From positions 28,278,581 to 28,342,580 of the forward strand of contig OZ024828.1 of the NCBI GenBank assembly GCA_964016985.1: a stretch of DNA of 64,000 nt, in the 5' to 3' direction. Under the pieces are notes generated by a model. That model was not told where the DNA came from. It ran no database searches and was given only the letters and a program-made list of their open reading frames with translations. Positions 21,975 through 42,989 of the stretch are shown in pieces. The translations under genes and the position numbers were made by a program. Every line of letters starts with the position of its first letter. Position 1 is the stretch's first letter. This stretch comes from Anodontia alba (lineage: Eukaryota; Mollusca; Bivalvia; Lucinida; Lucinidae).

Positions 21975-23928
21975 AAAAAGTGTGCAATGTAAAAATGCCC
22001 AAAATGACAAGGTGCCACAACTCAAGAAGTACTTCAAAAGTTAATCAGGTCATCTACTCATTTTTACCAAACTATTCCTCAAATTTCAAGGCTCTAGCTT
22101 CAACAGTTTTTGAGATAGCTTGCTTCCCATCCATATTTTTTCAAAGGGCCATAACTCAGGAAAAGGGCATAATCCTGATAAGAAAAAAAATATGTGTCAG
22201 CTATTTTTTCATGAGGAATTTATATATGAAATTTCAAAACCCTAGCATGCACAGTTCAAAACTTATGCTATGCATCAAAAAGTGTGCAATGTATTAATGC
22301 CCAAAGTTATAAAGGGCCATAACTCATGAAGTAATTTTCAGAATTTATTCAAAAGTTAATCAGGTCATCTACTCATCAATATCAATCTATTCACCCTGGT
22401 TTCAAGGCTCTAGCTTCAATAGCCTTTGAGATATTTTGCTGACAAGATTTCATCCATATTTTTTCAAAGGGCCATAACTCAGGAAAGGGGCATTATCCTG
22501 ATAAGAAAAATTTAGGTGTCAGCTATTTTTTAATGAGGAATCCATATATGAAATTTCAAAACCCTAGCATGCACAGTTCAAGACTTAAGCTATGCATCAT
22601 AAAGTGTGCAATTTAAAAATGCCCGAAGTTATAATTTAATAAAGGGCCATAACTCATGAAGTAATTTTCAGAATTTATTCAAAAGTTAATCAGGTCATCT
22701 ACTCATCAATACCACTCTATTCACCAGGTTTCAAGGCTCTAGCTTCAATAGCCTGAGATATTTTGCTGACAAGATTTCATCTATATTTTTTCAAAGGATA
22801 ATAACTCAGGAAAGGGGCATAATCCTGATGGGAAAAAATATGTGTCAACTGTTTTTTCATGAAGAATCCATATATGAAATTTCAAAACCCTAGCATGCAC
22901 GGTTCAGAAGTTATGCTATGCATCAAACAAGAGCACCATGATGGTCCTATGTCGCTCACCTGAGCAAACAGATTTGCATATTTACTGTTGAAGTTTCAGC
23001 CAAGTTCACTGCTCTAGAAATTTGGGTTAAATTTTATAGCGCCAACCCCCCCCCCCCCCCCCCCTCCGGCACCCCCACCCATGCTTTTTTATGCGTCTTG
23101 ACGACTTGAATTGAATCTTAAAAGAGGGTCAACAAAGGAACATTTCTGCCAAGTTATATTGAAATTGGTCCAGTGGTTTAAAGTGTTTTATATAGCTATA
23201 AAGCCCTACCCCCTAACAGCCATGTTTTTTGACGAATCATAACCGCTTGAACAAACTTGGTATAGGGTCACCAAAGGAACATTCCTGCCAAGTTATATTG
23301 AAATCTGTTCAGTGGTTTCTGACAAGAAGATTTTTAAAGTTTTCTATTTAGATATATAGGGAAAATAAGCCCCACCCCATGGCAGCCATGTTTTTTGACG
23401 AATCATGATTGCTTGTATAATCTTGGTAGAGGGTCACCAAAGCAACATTCCAGCCAAGTAATATTGAAATTGGTCATGGGGTATGTGACAAGAAGAATTT
23501 TAAAGTTTTCTATGCAGATATATACAAAAAATAAGCCCCGCCCCCTGGGGGCCATGGTTTTTGACGTATCATGAAGGCTTGAACAATCTTGGTAGAAGGT
23601 CACCAAAGCAACAATCCTGCCAAGTTACATTGAACTCGGTCCAACTGTTTCTTACGAGAGGATTTTTAAAGTTTTCTATATAGATATATAGGGAAAATAA
23701 GCCCCGCCCCTAGCGGCCATGTTTTTTGACGAATCATGACGGCTTGAACAATCTTTGTAGAGGGTCACCAAAGAAACAATCCTGCCAAGTTGTATTGAAA
23801 TCAGTCCATTGGTTTCTGACAAGAAGATTTTTAAAGTTTTATGTATAGATATATAGGGAAAGTAAGCCCACCCCCAGCAGCCATGTTTTTTGACAAATCA
23901 TGATTACTTGAACAATCTTAGTAGATGG

Positions 23929-24152
23929 TGTTACGACCGAGCACTCCTACCTTCGATTATCTGCCTTGGCAGATTACGCATAGCTTTTAAGTATATATTC
24001 AATCTCTGACAACTGCGTCAGGGAGTCGACTCTTTGGCTCAGTGGTTAGAGCATTGGATTTTATCCAGGAGGACCGGGTTGGATTCCCATGAAAGGCGGA
24101 ATATTTTTTCAGCTATGCTTCATTCCTTTGTTACGGCTATCATGTCGTAAGA
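23929..24152 (+). repeat. 5' LTR of the miniature element
   Basis: 224 bases, beginning TGTTACGAC and ending GTCGTAAGA, an imperfect inverted pair (GTCGTAACA would be exact). Differences from the 3' LTR cluster in the tRNA-like part and the last 30 bases. Confidence 0.9.
24035..24109 (+). promoter_or_regulatory. tRNA-like pol III unit in 5' LTR
   Basis: A box TGGCTCAGTGG at 24035-24045, B-box-like GGTTGGATTCC at 24077-24087 (one mismatch to GGTTCGANTCC) and T6 at 24104-24109. The GCTC...GAGC D-stem is intact; acceptor and T stems are not. It is a tRNA-like promoter, not a functional tRNA gene. Confidence 0.75.
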
Positions 24153-24170
24153 TGGGGGCTCGTCCGGGAT
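24153..24170 (+). other. Primer-binding site complementary to tRNA-Pro 3' end
   Basis: The 18 bases tgggggctcgtccgggat directly follow the 5' LTR. They equal the well-known proline-tRNA primer-binding site used by many gammaretroviruses and some other LTR elements. Position and exact identity over 18 bases make chance very unlikely. Confidence 0.9.
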
Positions 24171-24223
24171 TGGACTTTATACGCCGAAAATGGCTTCACG
24201 TCATCATAAATGATGACTTCCTT

Positions 24224-24235
24224 GAAGAGGGGGAG
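24224..24235 (+). other. Polypurine tract
   Basis: Twelve purines (gaagagggggag) lie immediately before the 3' LTR, where plus-strand priming occurs in LTR retroelements. Confidence 0.85.
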
Positions 24236-24461
24236 TGTTACGACCAAGCACTCCTACCTTCGATTATCTGCCTTGGCAGATTACGCATAGCTTCTAAGTA
24301 TATATTCAATCTCTGACAACTGCGTCAGGGAGTCGACTCTTTGGCTCAGTGGTTAGAGCATTGGATTTTTATCCGGGAGGACCAGGTTCGATTCCCACGT
24401 CAGGCGTGGAAATTTTTTCATCTATGCTTCATTCCTTTGTTGCGACTTTCATGTTGTAAGA
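24236..24461 (+). repeat. 3' LTR of the miniature element
   Basis: 226 bases, same start and end as the 5' LTR. It is followed by ATGG, the 4-base target duplication, and then by the rest of the interrupted satellite monomer. Confidence 0.9.
24342..24418 (+). promoter_or_regulatory. tRNA-like pol III unit in 3' LTR (better preserved)
   Basis: A box TGGCTCAGTGG at 24342-24352, perfect B box GGTTCGATTCC at 24385-24395 (43 bases from A-box start, the usual tRNA spacing) and a T6 terminator at 24413-24418. The D arm (GCTC/GAGC) and a T-rich anticodon-like loop are visible; pairing elsewhere is poor. Confidence 0.8.
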
Positions 24462-26793
24462 ATGGTCACCAAGGAAACATTTCTGCAAAGTTATAATGAA
24501 ATGGATCCAGTGGTTTCTGACAAGAAGAGTTTTAAATTTTTCTATATAGATATATAAGGAAAATACGCCCCGCCCCCTGGCGGCCATGTTTTTTTATGAA
24601 TCATGACGGCTTGAACAATCTTGATAGAGGGTTACATAAGAAACATTCCTGCAAAGTTATATTGAGATCGGTCCAGTGGTTTCTGAAAAGAAGATCATTA
24701 AAGTTTTCTATGTAGATATATAGGGAAAATAAGCCCAGCCCCCCCTAGCGGCCATGTTTTTTGACAAATCATAACAGCTTGAACAATCTTGGTAAAGGGT
24801 CACCAAGGAAACATTTCTGCGAAGTTATATTGAAATCAGTCCTGTGGTTTCAGACGACAAGATTTTTTCAAGTTTTCTATATAGATATATAGGGAAAATA
24901 AGCCCCGCCCCCATCCCCCCTAGCGGCCATGTTTTTTGACAAATCATGACGGCTTGAATAAACTTGATAGAGAGTCACTAAGGGAACATTTCTGCCAAGT
25001 TATATTGAAATCGGTCCAGTCGTTTATGACGAGAAGATTTTTAAAGTTTTCTATATAGATATATAGGGGAAAAAAAAACCCGCCCCCCTAGCGGCCATGT
25101 TTTTTGACAAATCATGGCTGCTTGAACAATCTTGGTAGAGGATCACTGAAGAAACTTTTCTGCAAAATTACATTGAAATCAGTCCAATGGTTTCTGACAG
25201 AGAAGATTTTTAAAGTTTTCTATATAGATATATAAGGAAACTAAGCCCCGCCCCCTGATGGCCATGTTTTTTGACGAATCCAAATGGCTTGAACAATCTT
25301 GGTAGAGGATCTTGAAGGAACATTTCTGCAAAATTATACTGAAATCGATCCAGTGGTTTCTGACAAGAAGATTTTTAAAGTCTTCTATATAGATACAGAG
25401 GGAAAATCAGACAGGCCCCCTGGCGGCCATGTTTTTTGACGAATCCATATGGCTTGAACACTCTTGGTAGAGGATCACCAAAGGAACATTTCTGCAAAAT
25501 TATATTGAAATTGGTCCAGTGGTTTCTGACGAGAAGATTTTTAAAGTTTTCTATATAGATATATGGGGAAAATAAGCCCCGACACCCTTTGGCCAAGTTT
25601 TTTGACGAATCCAAATGGCTGGAACAATCTTGGTAGAGGATCACCAAAGGAACATTTCTGCAAAATTATATTGAAATCGATCCAGTGGTTTCTGACAAGA
25701 AGGTTTTTTAATTTTTCTATATAGATACATAGGGAAAATAAGCCTGACCCCCCCCAACCCCCACCCCCCATATGGGGAAAATAAGCCCCGACACCCTTTG
25801 GCCATGTTTTTTGACTAATCCAAATGGCTTGAACAATCTTTTTAGAGGATCACCAAAGGAACATTTCTGAAAAAATTATATTGAAATCGGTCCAGTGATT
25901 TCTGACAAGAAGATTTTTAAAGTTTTCTATATAGATATATAGGGAAAATAAGCCCCGCCCCCTGGCAGCCATGTTTTTTGACGAATCCAAATGGCTTGAA
26001 TAATCTTGGTAGAGGATCACCAAAGGAACATTTCTGCCAAGTTATATTGAAATCGGTCCAATGGTTTCTGACAGGAAGATTTTTAAAGTTTTCTATATAG
26101 ACATATGGGGAAAATAAGCCCCGGCCCCTGGCGGCCATGTTTTTTGACGAATCCAAATGTTTTTTGACAAATCCAAATGGCTTAAACAATCTTGGTAGAG
26201 GATCACCAAAGGAACATTTCTGCAAAATTATATTGAAATCGGTCCAGTGGTTTCTGACAAGAAGATTTTTAAAGTTTTCTATATAGATATATGGGGAAAA
26301 TAAGCCCCGACCCCCCGCGGCCATGTTTTTTGACGAATCCAAATGGCCTGAACAATCTTGGTAGAGGATCACCAAAGGAACATTTCTGCAAAATTATACT
26401 GAAATCGGTCCAGTGGTTTCTGATAAGAAGATTTTTTAAGTTTTTAGTTAAAAAATCTATTTTTAGTTCCTGTGACCTAGATATGCAACGGACCGGAACC
26501 ATTTGAACAACTTTGAAAGACGACCAACCAAGGATCATTCCTGTGAAGTTTGGTTAAAATCCAATCAGTGGTTTAGGAGGAGATGTTGTTTAAAGATTGT
26601 GGACAGACGGACGGACATATGGATGACGATGACGCCGACGACAACGGACGGTGAGTGATCACAAAAGCTCACCTTGAGCCTTCAGCTCAGGTGAGCTAAA
26701 AACATAACGGATGGATGCACGGACGGATGCACACATGCACAAACATCCCAGAAGCAATATGCCCCTCCAACTTCTTCGAATTTGGGGGCATAA

Positions 26794-31011: not shown

Positions 31012-34000
31012 TCATATTTTATTAAAAAGTCCGATCTCTTTCAGAAAATCGAGTATTTTTTGAGTTGGCATATTAAAAAGTTCCTTTATATTTTTTACAT
31101 TAAAATACTTTGTGCGAATATAATTAAATTCAGCACAAGTGACAAGAAAATGTTTGACCGTAAAAGGTTCGTTACAAGGAATGCAGAATGGAGCTTGTTC
31201 ATTGTTTAAAATATAAGAATGAGTAATTCTAGTGTGTCCAAGTCTACATCTCGTGATTTTTGTTTGTTCTTTTCTGCTGAGATTAGAGAATGTGCATTTG
31301 CTGTTAAAATTTGGTTTGATTTCATTTAATTTATTATAAGTTTGTGTTTCCCAAACAGACTGACATTTGTTGTTGATGTATTGACAGACGTTTGATTTAA
31401 AGTCGGAGTGAGGAATTTTGAAATTGGTTATTACTAAGGATAATGCAGCTTCTGGATCTGCTAATTCATTTCCACGAATATTAACGTGGCCGGGAAGCCA
31501 ACAAAATACAATTTCTTTTGAAGCGGAAAGATAATAATATTTTTTAAGAATTTGCTGAATTAATGGGTTTCTATGGTGTAAATCTTTAAGAGATTTTAAT
31601 ACAGAAAGAGAATCTGAATAAATGATAAACTGTTTTTCAGACTGATCTCTGATATGGTAAAGTGCAATATCAATTGCCTTGGCTTCGGCGGTAAAAATGG
31701 AGCTATTATCAGGTAATCTGATACTGTCAGTAAAATTTGGACTAATAACAGAACAAGCAACTTTCTCATCTTGTTTCGAACCATCTGTATAAATTGACAG
31801 GTAATGTTTATAACTTGATTTGATTTCTAAAAATTCATTCTTAAAAATATGCGACTCGACTTCTGTTTTTTTATTTTTATGAAGGTCTAAAATAATCTTT
31901 GGAGGGTTTAACGTCCATGGCTCTTTTGATGGAAAAGAAAAATGCTGAACATTTTTAATATTGATATTGGCCTCTTCAAGTAACGGTTGTATTCTCAGGC
32001 CAAGGGGTTTAATAGCTGTTGGTTTATTATTGTAAAATCTTTCATATTTAGGGTTAAAAACACAATCATGAGCTGAATTACGTGGATTGGCGGCTAATTT
32101 AGTAACATATTGAAGAGACAATTTCTCTCTTCTTATATACAATGATGGTTCATTTGATTCAGCGTATAAACTTTCGACGGGGGAAGTACGAAAAGCCCCT
32201 AGAGCCAGACGTAAACCTTGGTGATGGATAGTATCCAAAGATTTCAAATAAGATTTTCTAGCGGATCCATAAACTATGGATCCATAATCCAGTTTAGATC
32301 TAATTAAAGATCTATAAAGATTTAAAAGAACAGTACGATCTCCTCCCCAGTCGGAACTGGAGAGAACTTTAAGAATATCAAGAGCTTTTAAACATTTAGC
32401 TTTTAAAGCTTTGATGTGTGGTATAAAAGATAATTTGTTATCGAACAAAAGACCGAGGAATTTTGCTTCACTGACGACTGGAATTGGACTACCGTATATG
32501 GTGAGATGAGGATCTAAATGTAGCTGACGTATCTGACAAAAATGAACGCATTGAGTTTTTGTTTTTGAAAATTTGAAACCATTTTCTGTTGCCCAATCTT
32601 CTATATTGTTTAAACATCGTTGTAGTTTGAATTCAATGGTTTCCATATTTTTCGATCTAATAAATATTCCAAAATCGTCAACAAAAAGTGAACAATCAAG
32701 GTCTTTCACACATTTAACAATATCGTTAATTTTAATGCCAAACAAGGTAGGTGATAAAATGCTTCCCTGTGGTACACCTTGTTCTTGTTTAAATATGTCC
32801 GATAACGTATTACCTATTCGAACATTAAATGTTCGATCTGATAAAAAATTTTGAATAAAAAGTGGTAATCGGCCTTTAAGGCCTAATTTATGTAAATCTT
32901 TCATGATGCCATGTTTCCATGTAGTATCGTAAGCTTTTTCAAGATCAAAAAATACAGCTACGACATGTTCTTTTTTAATAAAGGCATCACGAATAAAGGA
33001 TTCCAAACGAATCAAATGATCGTTTGTACAGTTATTTTTTCTGAATCCAGCTTGATATTTTGTTATAAGCTGGTTTGATTCCAAGAACCAAACCAGCCTA
33101 TCATTAATCATTCTCTCCATTGTTTTACATAAACAACTTGTCAAAGCAATAGGTCTGTAGTTAGTAGCTTCAGTATGATCTTTATTTGGTTTTGGTATAG
33201 GTATAATGGTTGCTTTACTCCAGTCTTTTGGAAATTTTCCAGTGATCCAAATATCATTTAAAATATTTAATAAAGTTTTTAAAGCGTTATCGGGTAAATG
33301 TTTAAGAATTTGATAATGAATGTCATCAGGACCAGCAGCTGTATCATGAGATTTATGAAGAGCATCTAATAATTCTGAAGCTGTGAATGGTACATTATAT
33401 TTTTCATGATTTAGTGACGTAAAATTTAGATGCTCTTTCTCTCGTTCCTGTTTTATGTTTTGAAAGGTTTCGGAATAGTTTGCACTAGAAGAGTTTTTCT
33501 GAAAATTCTCTCCTAGTGCATTGGAAATATCTTTAGTCGTTGAGCATATATTTCCATTTGATTTAATGTGGACATGCTTGTTATTTTTATTTTTGCCAGT
33601 AATTTTTCGAATCATGTCCCATATCTTCTTTGCTGGAGTTCTAGAATTAAGTTTGGAGACGTATTGCTGCCAAGATGTTCTTTTAGCCGTTTTTATTGTC
33701 TTGCGAGCTTTTGCTCGCATTTGTTTGGCATGGATAAGATTTTCTTTTGTTGGCTGCCTATTGAACTTTCGTAAGGCAGATTTTCTTTTATTTATTAAAT
33801 TTTTAACATCTTTATTAAACCAAGGTCTATTTCTTTTTGAACGTGTCGAGGACTTTGGAATACATTTTTCGGCTACATGAATTAATGTATCAGTAAAAGC
33901 TTGTATATCATCTGCTGTTTTAAACATTTCAGGATTTAATTTTTCATTACATAGCTCCATAAAATTCTCCCAGTTTGCTTTATTGAAATTCCATCGGGAA

Positions 34001-34677
34001 TGATGGTCTTCATTTGTCGATTCAATTTCTTCAATTTTAATTGGAAAATGATCGCTCCCATGAAGGTCATCTAAAACTGACCAATCAAATTCTAAGTAAA
34101 TTCTTGGAGAGCATATAGACAAATCTAAAGCAAAATAATTTCTTGTAGGAGAATGAAGATAAGTTGGTTGTTTATCGTTAAATAAACATAGATCATTTTC
34201 TGCAATAAAATTTTCTATTATTTCTCCTTTGTCATTTGTATCCAGACAACCCCATAGTTTGCTGTGACTATTAAAGTCACCTAATAATAAATAAGGACGA
34301 GGTAACTGGTTTATAAGATTTTCTAAATCGTGTTTAGAAAATTTACAGTGTGGAGGGAGATATAGAGAACAAATTGTTATGGATTTAGACAGAGTGACAT
34401 TTACAGCAACAGCTTGTAAATTACTATTTATATCTATCCGTCTATGAGGAACATTTGATTTTACAAGGATAGATGAGCCTCCTGAGGCTTTCTGATTTTC
34501 AGGTGCGATATGATTATATAAACTATAATTTTTAAAATTAATATTATCTGTATTCTTTAAAAAGGTTTCCTGGAGACAAAAGACAGTCGGAGAAAGTAGT
34601 GTTGTTAAAATTAAAATTTCGTTATAATTTGCTTTTAGTCCTCGACAGTTCCACTGAATAATTGATTTTTTATCCAT
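31012..34677 (-). CDS. LINE ORF2: endonuclease, reverse transcriptase, RNase H (1221 aa)
   Basis: A single intact frame. Residues 1-220 are an APE-type endonuclease: LQET (Glu37), GDFN (133-136) and SDHFPI (208-213, Asp209 and His210). The reverse transcriptase spans about 480-740, with NYRPIALT from 506, GVPQGSILSP, and FVDD (665-668) in place of YADD. RNase H spans about 960-1080, with YTDGS (963-967), a conserved Glu in TAEAKA, YSDS and GNELAD (1069-1074), so all four acidic residues are present. A CX2C...HX4C knuckle (1165-1181) closes the protein. This machinery nicks target DNA and copies the element RNA. It begins 37 bases after the end of ORF1. Nothing essential is visibly missing. 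Confidence 0.95.
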   Translation of the reverse strand: MDKKSIIQWNCRGLKANYNEILILTTLLSPTVFCLQETFLKNTDNINFKNYSLYNHIAPENQKASGGSSILVKSNVPHRRIDINSNLQAVAVNVTLSKSITICSLYLPPHCKFSKHDLENLINQLPRPYLLLGDFNSHSKLWGCLDTNDKGEIIENFIAENDLCLFNDKQPTYLHSPTRNYFALDLSICSPRIYLEFDWSVLDDLHGSDHFPIKIEEIESTNEDHHSRWNFNKANWENFMELCNEKLNPEMFKTADDIQAFTDTLIHVAEKCIPKSSTRSKRNRPWFNKDVKNLINKRKSALRKFNRQPTKENLIHAKQMRAKARKTIKTAKRTSWQQYVSKLNSRTPAKKIWDMIRKITGKNKNNKHVHIKSNGNICSTTKDISNALGENFQKNSSSANYSETFQNIKQEREKEHLNFTSLNHEKYNVPFTASELLDALHKSHDTAAGPDDIHYQILKHLPDNALKTLLNILNDIWITGKFPKDWSKATIIPIPKPNKDHTEATNYRPIALTSCLCKTMERMINDRLVWFLESNQLITKYQAGFRKNNCTNDHLIRLESFIRDAFIKKEHVVAVFFDLEKAYDTTWKHGIMKDLHKLGLKGRLPLFIQNFLSDRTFNVRIGNTLSDIFKQEQGVPQGSILSPTLFGIKINDIVKCVKDLDCSLFVDDFGIFIRSKNMETIEFKLQRCLNNIEDWATENGFKFSKTKTQCVHFCQIRQLHLDPHLTIYGSPIPVVSEAKFLGLLFDNKLSFIPHIKALKAKCLKALDILKVLSSSDWGGDRTVLLNLYRSLIRSKLDYGSIVYGSARKSYLKSLDTIHHQGLRLALGAFRTSPVESLYAESNEPSLYIRREKLSLQYVTKLAANPRNSAHDCVFNPKYERFYNNKPTAIKPLGLRIQPLLEEANINIKNVQHFSFPSKEPWTLNPPKIILDLHKNKKTEVESHIFKNEFLEIKSSYKHYLSIYTDGSKQDEKVACSVISPNFTDSIRLPDNSSIFTAEAKAIDIALYHIRDQSEKQFIIYSDSLSVLKSLKDLHHRNPLIQQILKKYYYLSASKEIVFCWLPGHVNIRGNELADPEAALSLVITNFKIPHSDFKSNVCQYINNKCQSVWETQTYNKLNEIKPNFNSKCTFSNLSRKEQTKITRCRLGHTRITHSYILNNEQAPFCIPCNEPFTVKHFLVTCAEFNYIRTKYFNVKNIKELFNMPTQKILDFLKEIGLFNKI

Positions 34678-34714
34678 GATGAATGGAGAGATGGATATTT
34701 TGAAAATAAGGAAC

Positions 34715-35173
34715 TTAATCCTTTTGTTTTCTCTGAGACTGCAAGAACATGGAGGAGTCAGTCTCTAACTCCATGTTCTCAAGGGAATCGAACCGATTGA
34801 CCAACTTGATCGGATCGGCCGACGCCCCTTTACTATATGGATTTGGTTCTTTATCTTTATCTTTTTCTTTTCCATTTTTTCCTTTCTGGTCAGCTGTCCT
34901 GGACCTGGATCTCTGTTGTGATCCACTTGTTTTAGTCGGCTGTGTTTGTGAACTGTTTTGAGATTTTGTTGGTGGTCTAGACTGATGAGTAGATGTGGGT
35001 TTAGGTTTAGGTTTTACAGTAGGAGTAATAACTTTTGAATTTGCTTTGATGACAGAATCTTTTTCGTTAAACTGGGTAGAACTTTCTTTCGTTTCAGGTT
35101 TAGTGTTTAGGGATTGAACAACTTTTGCAAAGGTGATTTCAGGTTGATTTTCTTGAATCTTTTTGGCTTCCAA
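34715..35173 (-). CDS. LINE ORF1, C-terminal part (frame-shifted)
   Basis: Continues ORF1 in the +1 frame after the A7 run at 35182-35188. The 152 residues are hydrophilic and low-complexity: a long Ser/Thr/Lys/Gln/Pro stretch (TVKPKPKPTSTHQSRPPTKS) followed by basic residues, as in the tails of I-clade ORF1 proteins. The ATG at 35173 is probably not a true start, because the similarity-free joint with the upstream frame is at the A run. Alone it lacks the zinc knuckles. Confidence 0.8.
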   Translation of the reverse strand: MEAKKIQENQPEITFAKVVQSLNTKPETKESSTQFNEKDSVIKANSKVITPTVKPKPKPTSTHQSRPPTKSQNSSQTQPTKTSGSQQRSRSRTADQKGKNGKEKDKDKEPNPYSKGASADPIKLVNRFDSLENMELETDSSMFLQSQRKQKD

Positions 35174-36008
35174 ATAAGTGATTTTTTTGTGTAACTTTAA
35201 TTTTCATGATTTCTTTCTCTTTTTTCCAAATTTCACACTGATTTGATTTTGATTGATGGTTTTTGTGACAGTTCACACACTTGGCTTCATTCTTACAAGC
35301 ATTTGTAGGGTGATCAAATTCACCCATACCACATTTTTCACATACTGATCCAGGTGCTTCCGGACAGCCGTTTTCATGATGTCCAAACCTCTGACAGTTG
35401 AAACACCGCAGAGGATTTGGAATGTAGACTTCAACCGGTATAATTCGATAAAAGATTTTTAGTGATTTCGGTAAAGTTGTGGTGTTGAAAGTTAGTAAAA
35501 GTGTATTTGTTTCTATAAAGTTTCCATCTTTTTTAATTTTAAAACGTTTGCAAGCTGTTACTCCTTGTGTGTTAAGATATTCTGTGATATTTTCTTCAGT
35601 TTCATGTTTTAGCATTCTGTCACGGATAATACCTTTGCAACTGTTTAGAGTTTTATGTTCCGTGACAGAAACATTAATGTTAAAGAATTTTGTAATTTTC
35701 AAGAGATTATCAGTTTGAGATTTTCTGTTAGTTTCGACCAAAAGAGTTCCATTTTTTAATTTTTTTATATTTTTTGGAGTGCCTATAATTGATTCTATTT
35801 GCTTTTCTATAATGAAAGGTGACAGTGAAGTAATAGGTTTGTCCTCTTTACTCGAAATCACTAAAAATTTAGCGAAGTTCTCATTAGCTTTGAATGTAAA
35901 TGTAGTCGGTTGCGTGTCGTCCTCCGAAGAGTCGAACGCCAGAAATCGTTTTCGAGATGCCATGGTGATGAAATTTTTGATTCGATAGCTATGCGCCCCA
36001 CCCTCCAT
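35139..36008 (-). CDS. LINE ORF1, N-terminal part with three zinc knuckles
   Basis: 289 codons; the likely true start is the second ATG at 35963 (MASRKRFLAF). Three knuckle-like motifs follow one another from residue 202 of the long form: CFNCQRFGHHENGC (CX2CX4HX4C), CEKCGMGEFDHPTNAC and CVNCHKNHQSKSNQC. ORF1 proteins of I-type LINEs bind element RNA and chaperone nucleic acid. The last 20 or so codons after the A7 run (35182-35188) are read in the wrong frame and stop early. One base fewer in the run would join this frame to 34715-35173, for a protein of roughly 430 residues. Confidence 0.85.
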   Translation of the reverse strand: MEGGAHSYRIKNFITMASRKRFLAFDSSEDDTQPTTFTFKANENFAKFLVISSKEDKPITSLSPFIIEKQIESIIGTPKNIKKLKNGTLLVETNRKSQTDNLLKITKFFNINVSVTEHKTLNSCKGIIRDRMLKHETEENITEYLNTQGVTACKRFKIKKDGNFIETNTLLLTFNTTTLPKSLKIFYRIIPVEVYIPNPLRCFNCQRFGHHENGCPEAPGSVCEKCGMGEFDHPTNACKNEAKCVNCHKNHQSKSNQCEIWKKEKEIMKIKVTQKNHLFGSQKDSRKST

Positions 36009-40263: not shown

Positions 40264-40356
40264 AAAACATTCAACACCATCTGTTTTTCATCTCACTGCT
40301 GCACTTTTATCCTTACTTTTCATCTTCCTTTATTCTTCACTCTGAATAACTGCCTC

Positions 40357-42989
40357 AACATAATCGTTGGCAGGAGGCACTGCAGAACAACTAGATAGAT
40401 ACACAGGCGCAGTGCAATGAAGCATTATAAAGTCATGATCCGAGATCCTGAACATAATCGTTGGCAGGAGGCACTGCAGAACAACTAGATAGATACACAG
40501 GTGCAGTGCAATGAAGCATTATAAAGTCATGATCCGAGATCCTGAACATAATCGTTGGCAGGGGACACTGCAGAACAACTAGATAGATACACAGGTGCAG
40601 TGCAATGAAGCATTATAAAGTCATGATCCGAGATCCTGAACATAATCGTTGGCAGGGGACACTGCAGAACAACTAGATAGATACACAGGTGCAGTGCAAT
40701 GAAGCATTATAAAGTCATGATCCGAGATCCTGAACATAATCGTTGGCAGGGGACACTGCAGAACAACTAGATAGATACACAGGTGCAGTGCAATGAAGCA
40801 TTATAATGTCATGATCCGAGATCCTGAACATAATTGTTGGCAGGGGACACTGCAGACCAAAAAGATAGATACACAGGTGCAGTGCAATGAAGCATTATAA
40901 AGTCATGATCCGAGATCCTGAACATAATCGTTGGCAGGGGACACTGCAGAACGACTAGATAGATACACAGGTGCAGTGCAATGAAGCATTATAAAGTCAT
41001 GATCCGAGATCCTGAACATAATGGTTGGCAGGAGGCACTGCAGAAAAACAAGATAGATACACAGGCACAGTGCAATGAAGCATTATAAAGTCATGATCCG
41101 AGATCCTGAACATAATTGTTGGCAGGGGGCACTGCAGAACATCTAGATAGATATATAGGCGCAGTGCAATGAAGCATTATAAAGTCATGATCCGAGATCC
41201 TGAACATAATTGTTGGCAGTAGGCACTGCAGAACAACTAGATAGATACACAGGCACAGTGCAATATAGCATTATAAAGTCATGATCCGAGATCCTGAACA
41301 TAATCGTTGGCAGGGGGCATTGCAGAACAACTAGATAGATACAAAGGCGCAGTGCAATGAAGTATTATAAAGTCATGATCCGAGATCCTGAACATAATCG
41401 TTGGCAGGGGGCATTACAGAACAACTAGATAGATACACAGGTGCAGTGCAATGAAGCATTATAAAGTCATGATCCGAGATCCTGAACATAACTGATGGCA
41501 GGGGGCACTGCAGAACAACTAGATAGATACAAAGGCACAGTGCAATGAAGCATTATAAAGTCATGATCCGAGATCCTGAACATAATTAATGGCAGTAGGC
41601 ACTGCAGAACAACTAGATAGATACACAGGCACAGTGCAATGAAGCATTATAAAGTCATGATCCGAGATCCTGAACATAATCGTTGGCAGGGGGCATTGCA
41701 GAACAACTAGATAGATACACAGGCACAGTGCAATGAAGTATTATAAAGTCATGATCCGAGATCCTGAACATAATCGTTGGCAGGGGGCATTACAGAACAA
41801 CTAGATAGATACACAGGTGCAGTGCAATGAAGCATTATAAAGTCATGATCCGAGATCCTGAACATAACTGATGGCAGGGGGCACTGCAGAACAACTAGAT
41901 AGATACAAAGGCACAGTGCAATGAAGCATTATAAAGTCATGATCAAAGATCCTGAACATAATCGTTGGCAGGGGGCACTGCAGAACAACTAGATAGATAC
42001 ACAGGCACAGTGCAATGAAGCATTATAAAGTCATGATCCGAGATCCTGAACATAATTGTTGGCAGGGGGCACTGCAGAACAACTAGATAGATACAAAGGC
42101 GCAGTGCAATGAAACATTATAAAGTCATGATCCGAGATCCTGAACATAATCGTTGGCAGGGGGCACTGCAGAACAACTAGATAGATACACAGGTGCAGTG
42201 CAATGAAGCATTATAATGTCATGATCCGAGATCCTGAACATAATTGTTGGCAGCGGACACTGCAGAACAACCAGATAGATACAAAGGCGCAGTGCAATGA
42301 AGCATTATAAAGTCATGATCCGAGATCCTGAACATAATCATTGGCAGGGGGCACTGCAGAACAACTAGATAGATACACAGGCGCAGTGCAATGAAGCTTT
42401 ATAAAATCATGATCTGAGATCCTGAACATAATTGTTGGCAAGAGGCACTGTAGAACAACTAGATAGATACACAGGCGCAGTGCAATGAAACATTATAAAG
42501 TCATGATCCGAGATCCTGAACATAATCGTTGGCAGCCTGGGGCACTGCAGAACAACTAGATAGATAGACAGGCACAGTGCAATGAAGTATTATAAAGTCA
42601 TGATCCGAGATCCTGAACATAATCGTTGGCAGGGGGCACTGCAGAACAACTAGATAGATACACAGGCGCATTGCAATGAAGCATTATAAAGTCATGATCC
42701 GAGATCCTGAACATAATCGTTGGCAGGGGGCACTGCAGAACAACTAGATAGATACACAGGCGCAGTGCAATGAAGCATTATAATGTCATTATCCGAGATC
42801 CTGAACATAATTGTTGGCAGGGGACACTGCAGAACAAATAGATAGATACACAGGTGCAGTGCAATGAAGCATTATAAAGTCATGATCCGAGATCCTGAAC
42901 ATAATCGTTGGCAGGAGGCACTGCAGGACAACTAGATAGATACACAGGTGCAGTGCAATGAAGCATTATAAAGTCATGATCTGAGATCC
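40357..42989. repeat. 28-copy, 94-bp minisatellite
   Basis: The unit 'aacataatcgttggcaggag'...'agtgcaatgaagcattataa'...'catgatccgagatcctg' is 94 bases and repeats 28 times with almost no length change. Variant bases show a four-unit block (376 bp): unit starts attgttggcagta, gcattgc, gcattac, actgatggc at about 41204-41580, repeated at 41582-41955. All frames contain stops, so it is non-coding. It contains no spacers, so it is not a CRISPR array. Confidence 0.95.

Follow-up and report, generated by a model that had tools for sequence, protein, structure and literature searches.

TRIMs with tRNA-like LTRs were named Helenus by Kojima in 2024, who proposed that they originated by insertion of a SINE into a TRIM LTR (PMC10886601). 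As stated in the main text of that paper, Helenus includes 51 bivalve families, all of them in Pteriomorphia, its target site duplications (TSDs) in animals measure 4 bp, and its dependence on a helper is left unsettled in detail. Among the literature from 2024 on that our search returned, only this paper and a meeting report (PMC12859917) deal with Helenus/TRIMp3, and the entries listed for adjacent subjects add nothing about it. Cassandra elements of plants also carry a pol III unit in a TRIM LTR and form arrays with read-through transcripts, but their promoter is that of 5S rRNA, according to the accounts cited (PMC7215508, PMC10853983); no helper family is known for them, as Kojima's main text puts it (PMC10886601). 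Among bivalves including Venerida, biv-TRIM (Satovic 2019) likewise occurs in solo and tandem forms; however, as far as its description goes, it lacks a clear primer-binding site (PBS), contains a conserved inner segment, TGATCCCAAAGGAC, and is not reported to have a tRNA-like LTR (PMC6934838). Complex insertions of LTR retrotransposons in Triticeae were ascribed to template switching of reverse transcriptase, although these are plant cases and, from the published description, apparently not fusions of a TRIM with its helper (PMC1950507).

The sequence-only reading of the locus studied here had proposed an animal analogue of Cassandra operating with a tRNA-type promoter and, much as Kojima does, a possible origin by the joining of a SINE (or a tRNA) to a TRIM. 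The kind of element was thereby correctly recognized, but it is not new, Helenus having already been described (PMC10886601). The element is assigned to Helenus by its architecture: it is short and non-coding and has two LTRs with tRNA-like boxes, a PBS, a polypurine tract (PPT) and a 4-bp TSD. The likeness to the families described in Kojima's main text includes the A and B boxes in the LTRs, the PBS of Gypsy type, the PPT and the 4-bp TSD of animals, as well as tandem arrays, reported there for zebrafish, and the presumed use of tRNA-Pro, found there among other tRNAs in bivalve families. The conserved segment of biv-TRIM, in contrast, is absent from the TRIM interiors compared here. Whereas Kojima infers dependence on Gypsy from the likeness of the PBS (and, in fungi, from one internal match), two fused insertions are available in the present case; naming a helper from fusions and describing a hairpin at the predicted U3/R border both go beyond the main text of PMC10886601, which mentions neither a hairpin nor a chimera.

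The window, a stretch of 64,000 nucleotides of Anodontia alba DNA, contains one LTR element of 533 bp (23929-24461), the ends and interior of which can be read directly from the letters. It is flanked by the TSD ATGG (23925-23928 and 24462-24465) and inserted into a 166-bp tandem repeat. The 5′ LTR of 224 nt (23929-24152) and the 3′ LTR of 226 nt (24236-24461), both on the forward strand like all features of the element given below, bear out the miniature LTR retrotransposon with LTRs of ~225 bp that had been postulated. They enclose an interior of 83 nt (24153-24235), which starts with the PBS TGGGGGCTCGTCCGGGAT (24153-24170) and ends with the PPT GAAGAGGGGGAG (24224-24235), so that these parts too, together with the 4-bp duplication, are present as first read. 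The PBS is presumably of the tRNA-Pro type. No open reading frame of at least 130 aa lies inside the element. An alignment of the two LTRs with each other has 17 differing columns; 15 of these fall at LTR position 131 or beyond and 14 at positions that are variable among other copies (pi > 0.04). Elsewhere the window harbours a 94-bp satellite (40353-42989; 28 copies, 93%) and, on the minus strand, a LINE (31012-36008) with ORFs of 1221, 152 and 289 aa. The nearest named relatives of this LINE are filed as proteins of bacterial symbionts (MAG), namely of Thiodiazotropha (87% and 73%) and of a Lucinoma symbiont (73%); we take these entries to stem from DNA of the lucinid clam hosts, and they are probably clam contamination of the symbiont assemblies.

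Each LTR contains the components of a tRNA-type pol III unit. The A box TGGCTCAGTGG, claimed for both LTRs, is found at 24035-24045 and 24342-24352, and a 23-nt stretch around it has two matches in the window, one per LTR, where none is expected by chance (up to 3 mismatches). The B box, also claimed for both, has been preserved in the 3′ LTR (GGTTCGATTCC, 24385-24395) but not in the 5′ LTR, where the corresponding position (24077-24087) carries the off-consensus GGTTGGATTCC. The T6 runs (24104-24109 and 24413-24418) exist as announced, but they follow the B box at 16-17 nt, not at 18-22. Between the boxes lie a T4 run in the 5′ LTR (24059-24062) and a T5 run in the 3′ LTR (24366-24370), both overlooked in the sequence-only reading, and a TATATA motif (23992-23997 and 24299-24304) precedes the 5′ A box by 43 nt. 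Stretches resembling tRNA extend over 24028-24098 and 24335-24402; with 22.2 and 17.7 bits for RF00005, respectively, both remain below the gathering score of 29. ARAGORN reports no tRNA gene over the window. A match to 5S rRNA is not found within 23900-24500 up to E = 10, which rules out a promoter of the 5S/Cassandra type.

Further copies were collected from the window's own genome (1.8626 Gb, 317 contigs). The search with the window copy gave at least 45 matches, the best 40 of 2699 first-look candidates having been scored, and that with a second subfamily at least 51 (best 40 of 2312 first-look candidates scored); the TRIM family is large. The A-box stretch has no match in viral contigs. 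Our sample of 40 loci, with 44 LTR-interior-LTR units and 84 near full-length LTRs, was chosen by similarity to the window copy and is biased accordingly. One short LTR match was left out of the TSD and alignment/pi analyses, the two window LTRs out of the pi values, and two LTRs of the locus L034, the flanks of which agree with those of L033, additionally out of the LTR-conservation analysis (80 LTRs). A 4-bp TSD is present at 35 of the 40 loci, four of these 35 being situated in simple repeats, which leave its exact length in doubt; the remaining ones comprise a locus with 5 bp (L038), one devoid of a duplication (L003) and three (L010, L012 and L032) that are parts of longer insertions. Over the 37 two-LTR loci, the LTRs of a pair are separated by 0-15 substitutions and in 27 by no more than three, which indicates recent movement of the TRIM. 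Among the side observations, L033 (C18) and L034 (C7) represent one element with identical 12-nt flanks on two chromosomes, which is a segmental duplication or an assembly duplicate. The listed matches to TRIM, Gypsy or tRNA are distributed over C1-C10, C12-C19 and C127, none being listed for C11. The locus L072 (C15:73198200-73199700) reads, at 642-851, LTR-INT-LTR-INT (65 nt) followed by an inverted INT and an inverted part of an LTR and is perhaps a fold-back product of aberrant reverse transcription.

The pol III unit is a property of the family. In the 40 loci the A box is found in 83 and the B box in 80 of the 84 LTRs, so that the window copy is neither single nor exceptional in having the boxes, both of which the sequence-only reading had named as ways in which it might fail. 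In the 79 LTRs with both boxes, to which the scoring of spacing and T runs was confined, the boxes are 42-44 nt apart (start to start), a T run of at least 5 follows the B box without exception (length 6 in 74), and the longest T run between the boxes is a T5 in 74. The TATATA motif is found 43 nt upstream of the A box in 82 of the 84 LTRs. The TATA motif, both boxes and T6 together make up 34 sites, none of which has a shared minor allele; such alleles occur at 9/17 sites between B box and T6, 6/43 in U5, 3/32 between the boxes and 5/97 in U3. Windows of equal or better conservation are, however, common (17 of 216 for the A box, 47 of 216 for the B box and 45 of 221 for T6), and the expectation that the boxes evolve more slowly is thus weakly supported: their conservation does not clearly exceed that of the remaining LTR. 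The stretch of 17 nt that separates B box from T6 (24396-24412 and its counterparts in other copies) is hypervariable (pi 0.155) and flanked by conserved modules. A Rfam tRNA search of the genome yielded results of which 57 of 60 were called tRNA-Ala(TGC) by ARAGORN, nearly all belonging to one repeat, and it therefore provided no tRNA panel against which the tRNA origin of the LTR could be traced. These tRNA-Ala(TGC)-like genes (L041-L070) are repeated many times, some of them ~218 bp apart.

The TRIM and a Ty3/Gypsy element are joined in two single insertions. The first, L071 (C8:37947600-37950500), is bounded by GTAT at both outer ends and consists, in this order, of LTR-interior-LTR-PBS, ~860 bp of Gypsy and LTR-interior-LTR. 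The Gypsy piece encodes RNase H domains (PF17917 and PF17919) and continues through the PPT into the first 37 nt of the Gypsy LTR. The outer TRIM LTRs are identical, the third LTR deviates at two sites, and of the two junctions the right one lies on a TGTT common to both elements while the left one shares 1 nt. In the second chimera (L079/L110), of which the two ends were read, a Gypsy LTR plus leader is found at one end, and at the other the Gypsy 3′ LTR is followed by GAAAT and then by the interior and one LTR of the TRIM; the middle has a frame of 1580 aa. CTAT at both ends implies that the left end of Gypsy and the right end of the TRIM were inserted together. A TRIM fusion was encountered at one of the 46 Gypsy 3′ ends scored, L087, L092, L095 and L113 having been left unscored. 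A further locus, L116 (C16:7941932-7942052), has a Gypsy LTR followed by Gypsy's own PBS and is a tandem Gypsy.

This Gypsy family is recently active. In a search with the 216-aa Gypsy piece, for which the best 150 of 3743 first-look candidates were scored as Gypsy matches, at least 67, the chimera included, are 100% identical over the 216 aa, and open frames reach 1618 aa. Seven copies read at both ends have LTRs of ~586-598 bp that are 99.8-100% identical; all seven possess a 4-bp TSD, and five contain the 18-letter PBS of the TRIM exactly. The PBS of the window copy agrees with that of the Gypsy copy L107 at 18/18 positions, and the counterpart of its PPT is GAAGAGGGGAAG; the PBS is located 5 nt past the LTR in Gypsy and directly at the LTR in the TRIM. 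A blastn comparison of the TRIM with terminal stretches of Gypsy, beginning at the LTR in L107 and at RNase H in L101, gave matches below E = 0.05 at the PBS and the PPT and nowhere else. The one Gypsy LTR scanned (L107) features TATAAA at 414 and AATAAA at 519 and no A or B boxes. We read the fusions as signs of co-packaging and of integration by this Gypsy, with template switching inferred as the step that joined the two. The family appears to be the helper of the TRIM, named as such from only two chimeras in one genome.

Taken as a whole, the element is very probably a Helenus-type TRIM (TRIMp3) that uses a tRNA-derived A/B-box pol III unit as LTR promoter and is mobilised by Gypsy. Judged from A-box geometry and TATA spacing, pol III would start near 24022-24028 and would mostly stop at T6, giving an RNA of ~80-90 nt; occasional read-through to the 3′ LTR would provide the genomic RNA. 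The latter would be taken up together with Gypsy RNA, primed for the first strand at the common PBS and for the second strand at the common PPT, and integrated by the Gypsy integrase. Due to the T5 between the boxes and the T6 behind the B box of the 5′ LTR, a genomic RNA made by pol III must pass both runs. A T5 stands behind the gene in 52 of the 60 tRNA-Ala repeats, suggesting that T5 may stop pol III in this genome.

A hairpin that the sequence-only reading had not noted is centred on the predicted start and pairs an arm in U3 with one in the A-box half of R. It comprises 63 nt and 27 bp (22 Watson-Crick, 5 G-U) and is located at 24304-24366 of the 3′ LTR, with the loop TCGA at 24333-24336, and with the same letters at 23997-24059 across the predicted U3/R border of the 5′ LTR. 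Its energy of -31.7 kcal/mol (z -6.3) was equalled by none of 200 shuffles, and the letters are identical in 60 of the 84 LTRs. The antisense strand is weaker (-16.2 kcal/mol) because the five wobbles form as G-U pairs in the sense transcript. In a scan of the TRIM LTR the hairpin forms the strongest window (z -5.6 sense; best antisense -2.9), compared with -1.84 sense and -2.95 antisense for the best of 67 windows in a Gypsy LTR. The loop holds the first tRNA position according to Infernal (24335), and the last pair recruits the first T of the T5 run, which directly follows the hairpin. With a start near the loop, the U3 arm would be missing from an RNA initiated in the 5′ LTR and present in one that reads into the 3′ LTR.

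One tentative possibility is that the hairpin sequences, by pairing 5′ R with 3′ U3, hold the two ends of the genomic RNA together, or that they dimerise it via the palindrome GAGTCGACTC, and in this way aid strand transfer or packaging rather than termination. In the predicted equilibrium fold of 24026-24461, the 3′ U3 arm would indeed pair with 5′ R (mean 0.76) and little with the neighbouring R (0.08-0.11); however, this is an equilibrium model, co-transcriptional folding may favour the local hairpin, and changes in the arms exhibit no bias towards keeping pairs. Among 100 LTRs, the paired sites show 28 distinct changes, of which 6 preserve the pair, compared with 32 of 162 possible ones, and maintenance of the hairpin by pairing-preserving change is accordingly unsupported. 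The changes are distributed unevenly (24 in the 5′ arm, 7 in the 3′ arm), one shifted haplotype adds to the breaks, and the A-box half of the hairpin may be constrained for other reasons.

By comparison with the Helenus-type pol III promoter itself, two readings of how transcripts begin and end are of lower standing. In the first, which we regard as unlikely, the element is the same TRIM, but pol II would make its genomic RNA, starting from the TATATA of U3, with the tRNA-like part as a passenger or as no more than a source of small RNA. Lying 43 nt before the A box, this motif is as far from the predicted start as is usual for pol II, and T5 and T6 would halt pol III short of the interior. 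Set against this, AATAAA and ATTAAA are absent from all 84 TRIM LTRs, in contrast to the TATAAA and AATAAA of the scanned Gypsy LTR, and the A and B boxes are retained at tRNA spacing. In the second, rather unlikely on our estimate and framed in analogy to yeast, the hairpin would be a pol III terminator discriminating between the LTRs, the T5 being ignored in the 5′ LTR and used in the 3′ LTR. For yeast pol III in vitro, the published text reports that release rises when a hairpin precedes a T4 immediately or at 7 nt, but not at a distance of 18 nt, that mutating the left arm abolishes the boost and that T6 needs none; a similar effect is cited there for human cells (PMC9278858). If true, two identical LTRs could be told apart, with a genomic RNA starting in the first and stopping in the second. 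The T6 of the 5′ LTR, which must be passed anyway, counts against it, as do the preference of the U3 arm for 5′ R in the equilibrium fold and the variation among copies, which does not favour pairing.

Tandem arrays are a further feature of the family. At ten loci from the second-subfamily search, overlapping matches 299-309 bp apart reveal three or more LTRs, and in seven of the eight arrays read the 4-bp flanks of the two sides agree. The outer LTRs of L015 do not differ from each other, whereas the middle one deviates at 16 columns, and in L020 the corresponding values are 3 versus 8-9, a pattern that copying of a dimer RNA would produce; in L134 the end LTRs are also most alike (9 versus 12 and 15), but the array continues beyond them. 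An interpretation of all arrays as mobilised multimers was rejected, as the outer LTRs are not the most alike in five of the eight. In five arrays of the second search the A box is present in 15/15 LTRs, the B box in 12/15 and a T run of at least 5 in 10/12. The arrays, together with mixed LTRs, document recombination or conversion in the TRIM family, and the chimeras might by extension be ascribed to later DNA recombination between neighbouring insertions instead of co-packaging. We judge this quite improbable, as the only 4-bp duplication of each chimera is the matching pair at its outer ends, and as the first combines identical outer LTRs with a right junction on the common TGTT. That the LTR is retained for the sake of a functional tRNA or small RNA encoded in it is scarcely credible: 6 of 20 LTRs from ten other loci do reach the Rfam gathering score (maximum 31.3 bits), but the predicted folds of four LTR pieces do not surpass those of shuffled sequences (z -0.55 to 0.49) and pairs are broken in the aligned stems, on which grounds a functional tRNA was rejected, and Kojima's main text takes the same negative view for most Helenus (PMC10886601).

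Mobilisation of the Helenus-type TRIM by Gypsy would thus involve a helper and a dependant that share, in the pieces compared, only two priming sites, whereby a minimal requirement of PBS, PPT and LTR tips becomes testable. Moreover, the family seems young, to judge from the many near-identical LTR pairs and Gypsy copies, and one should be able to measure both its small RNAs and its fresh insertions in live animals.
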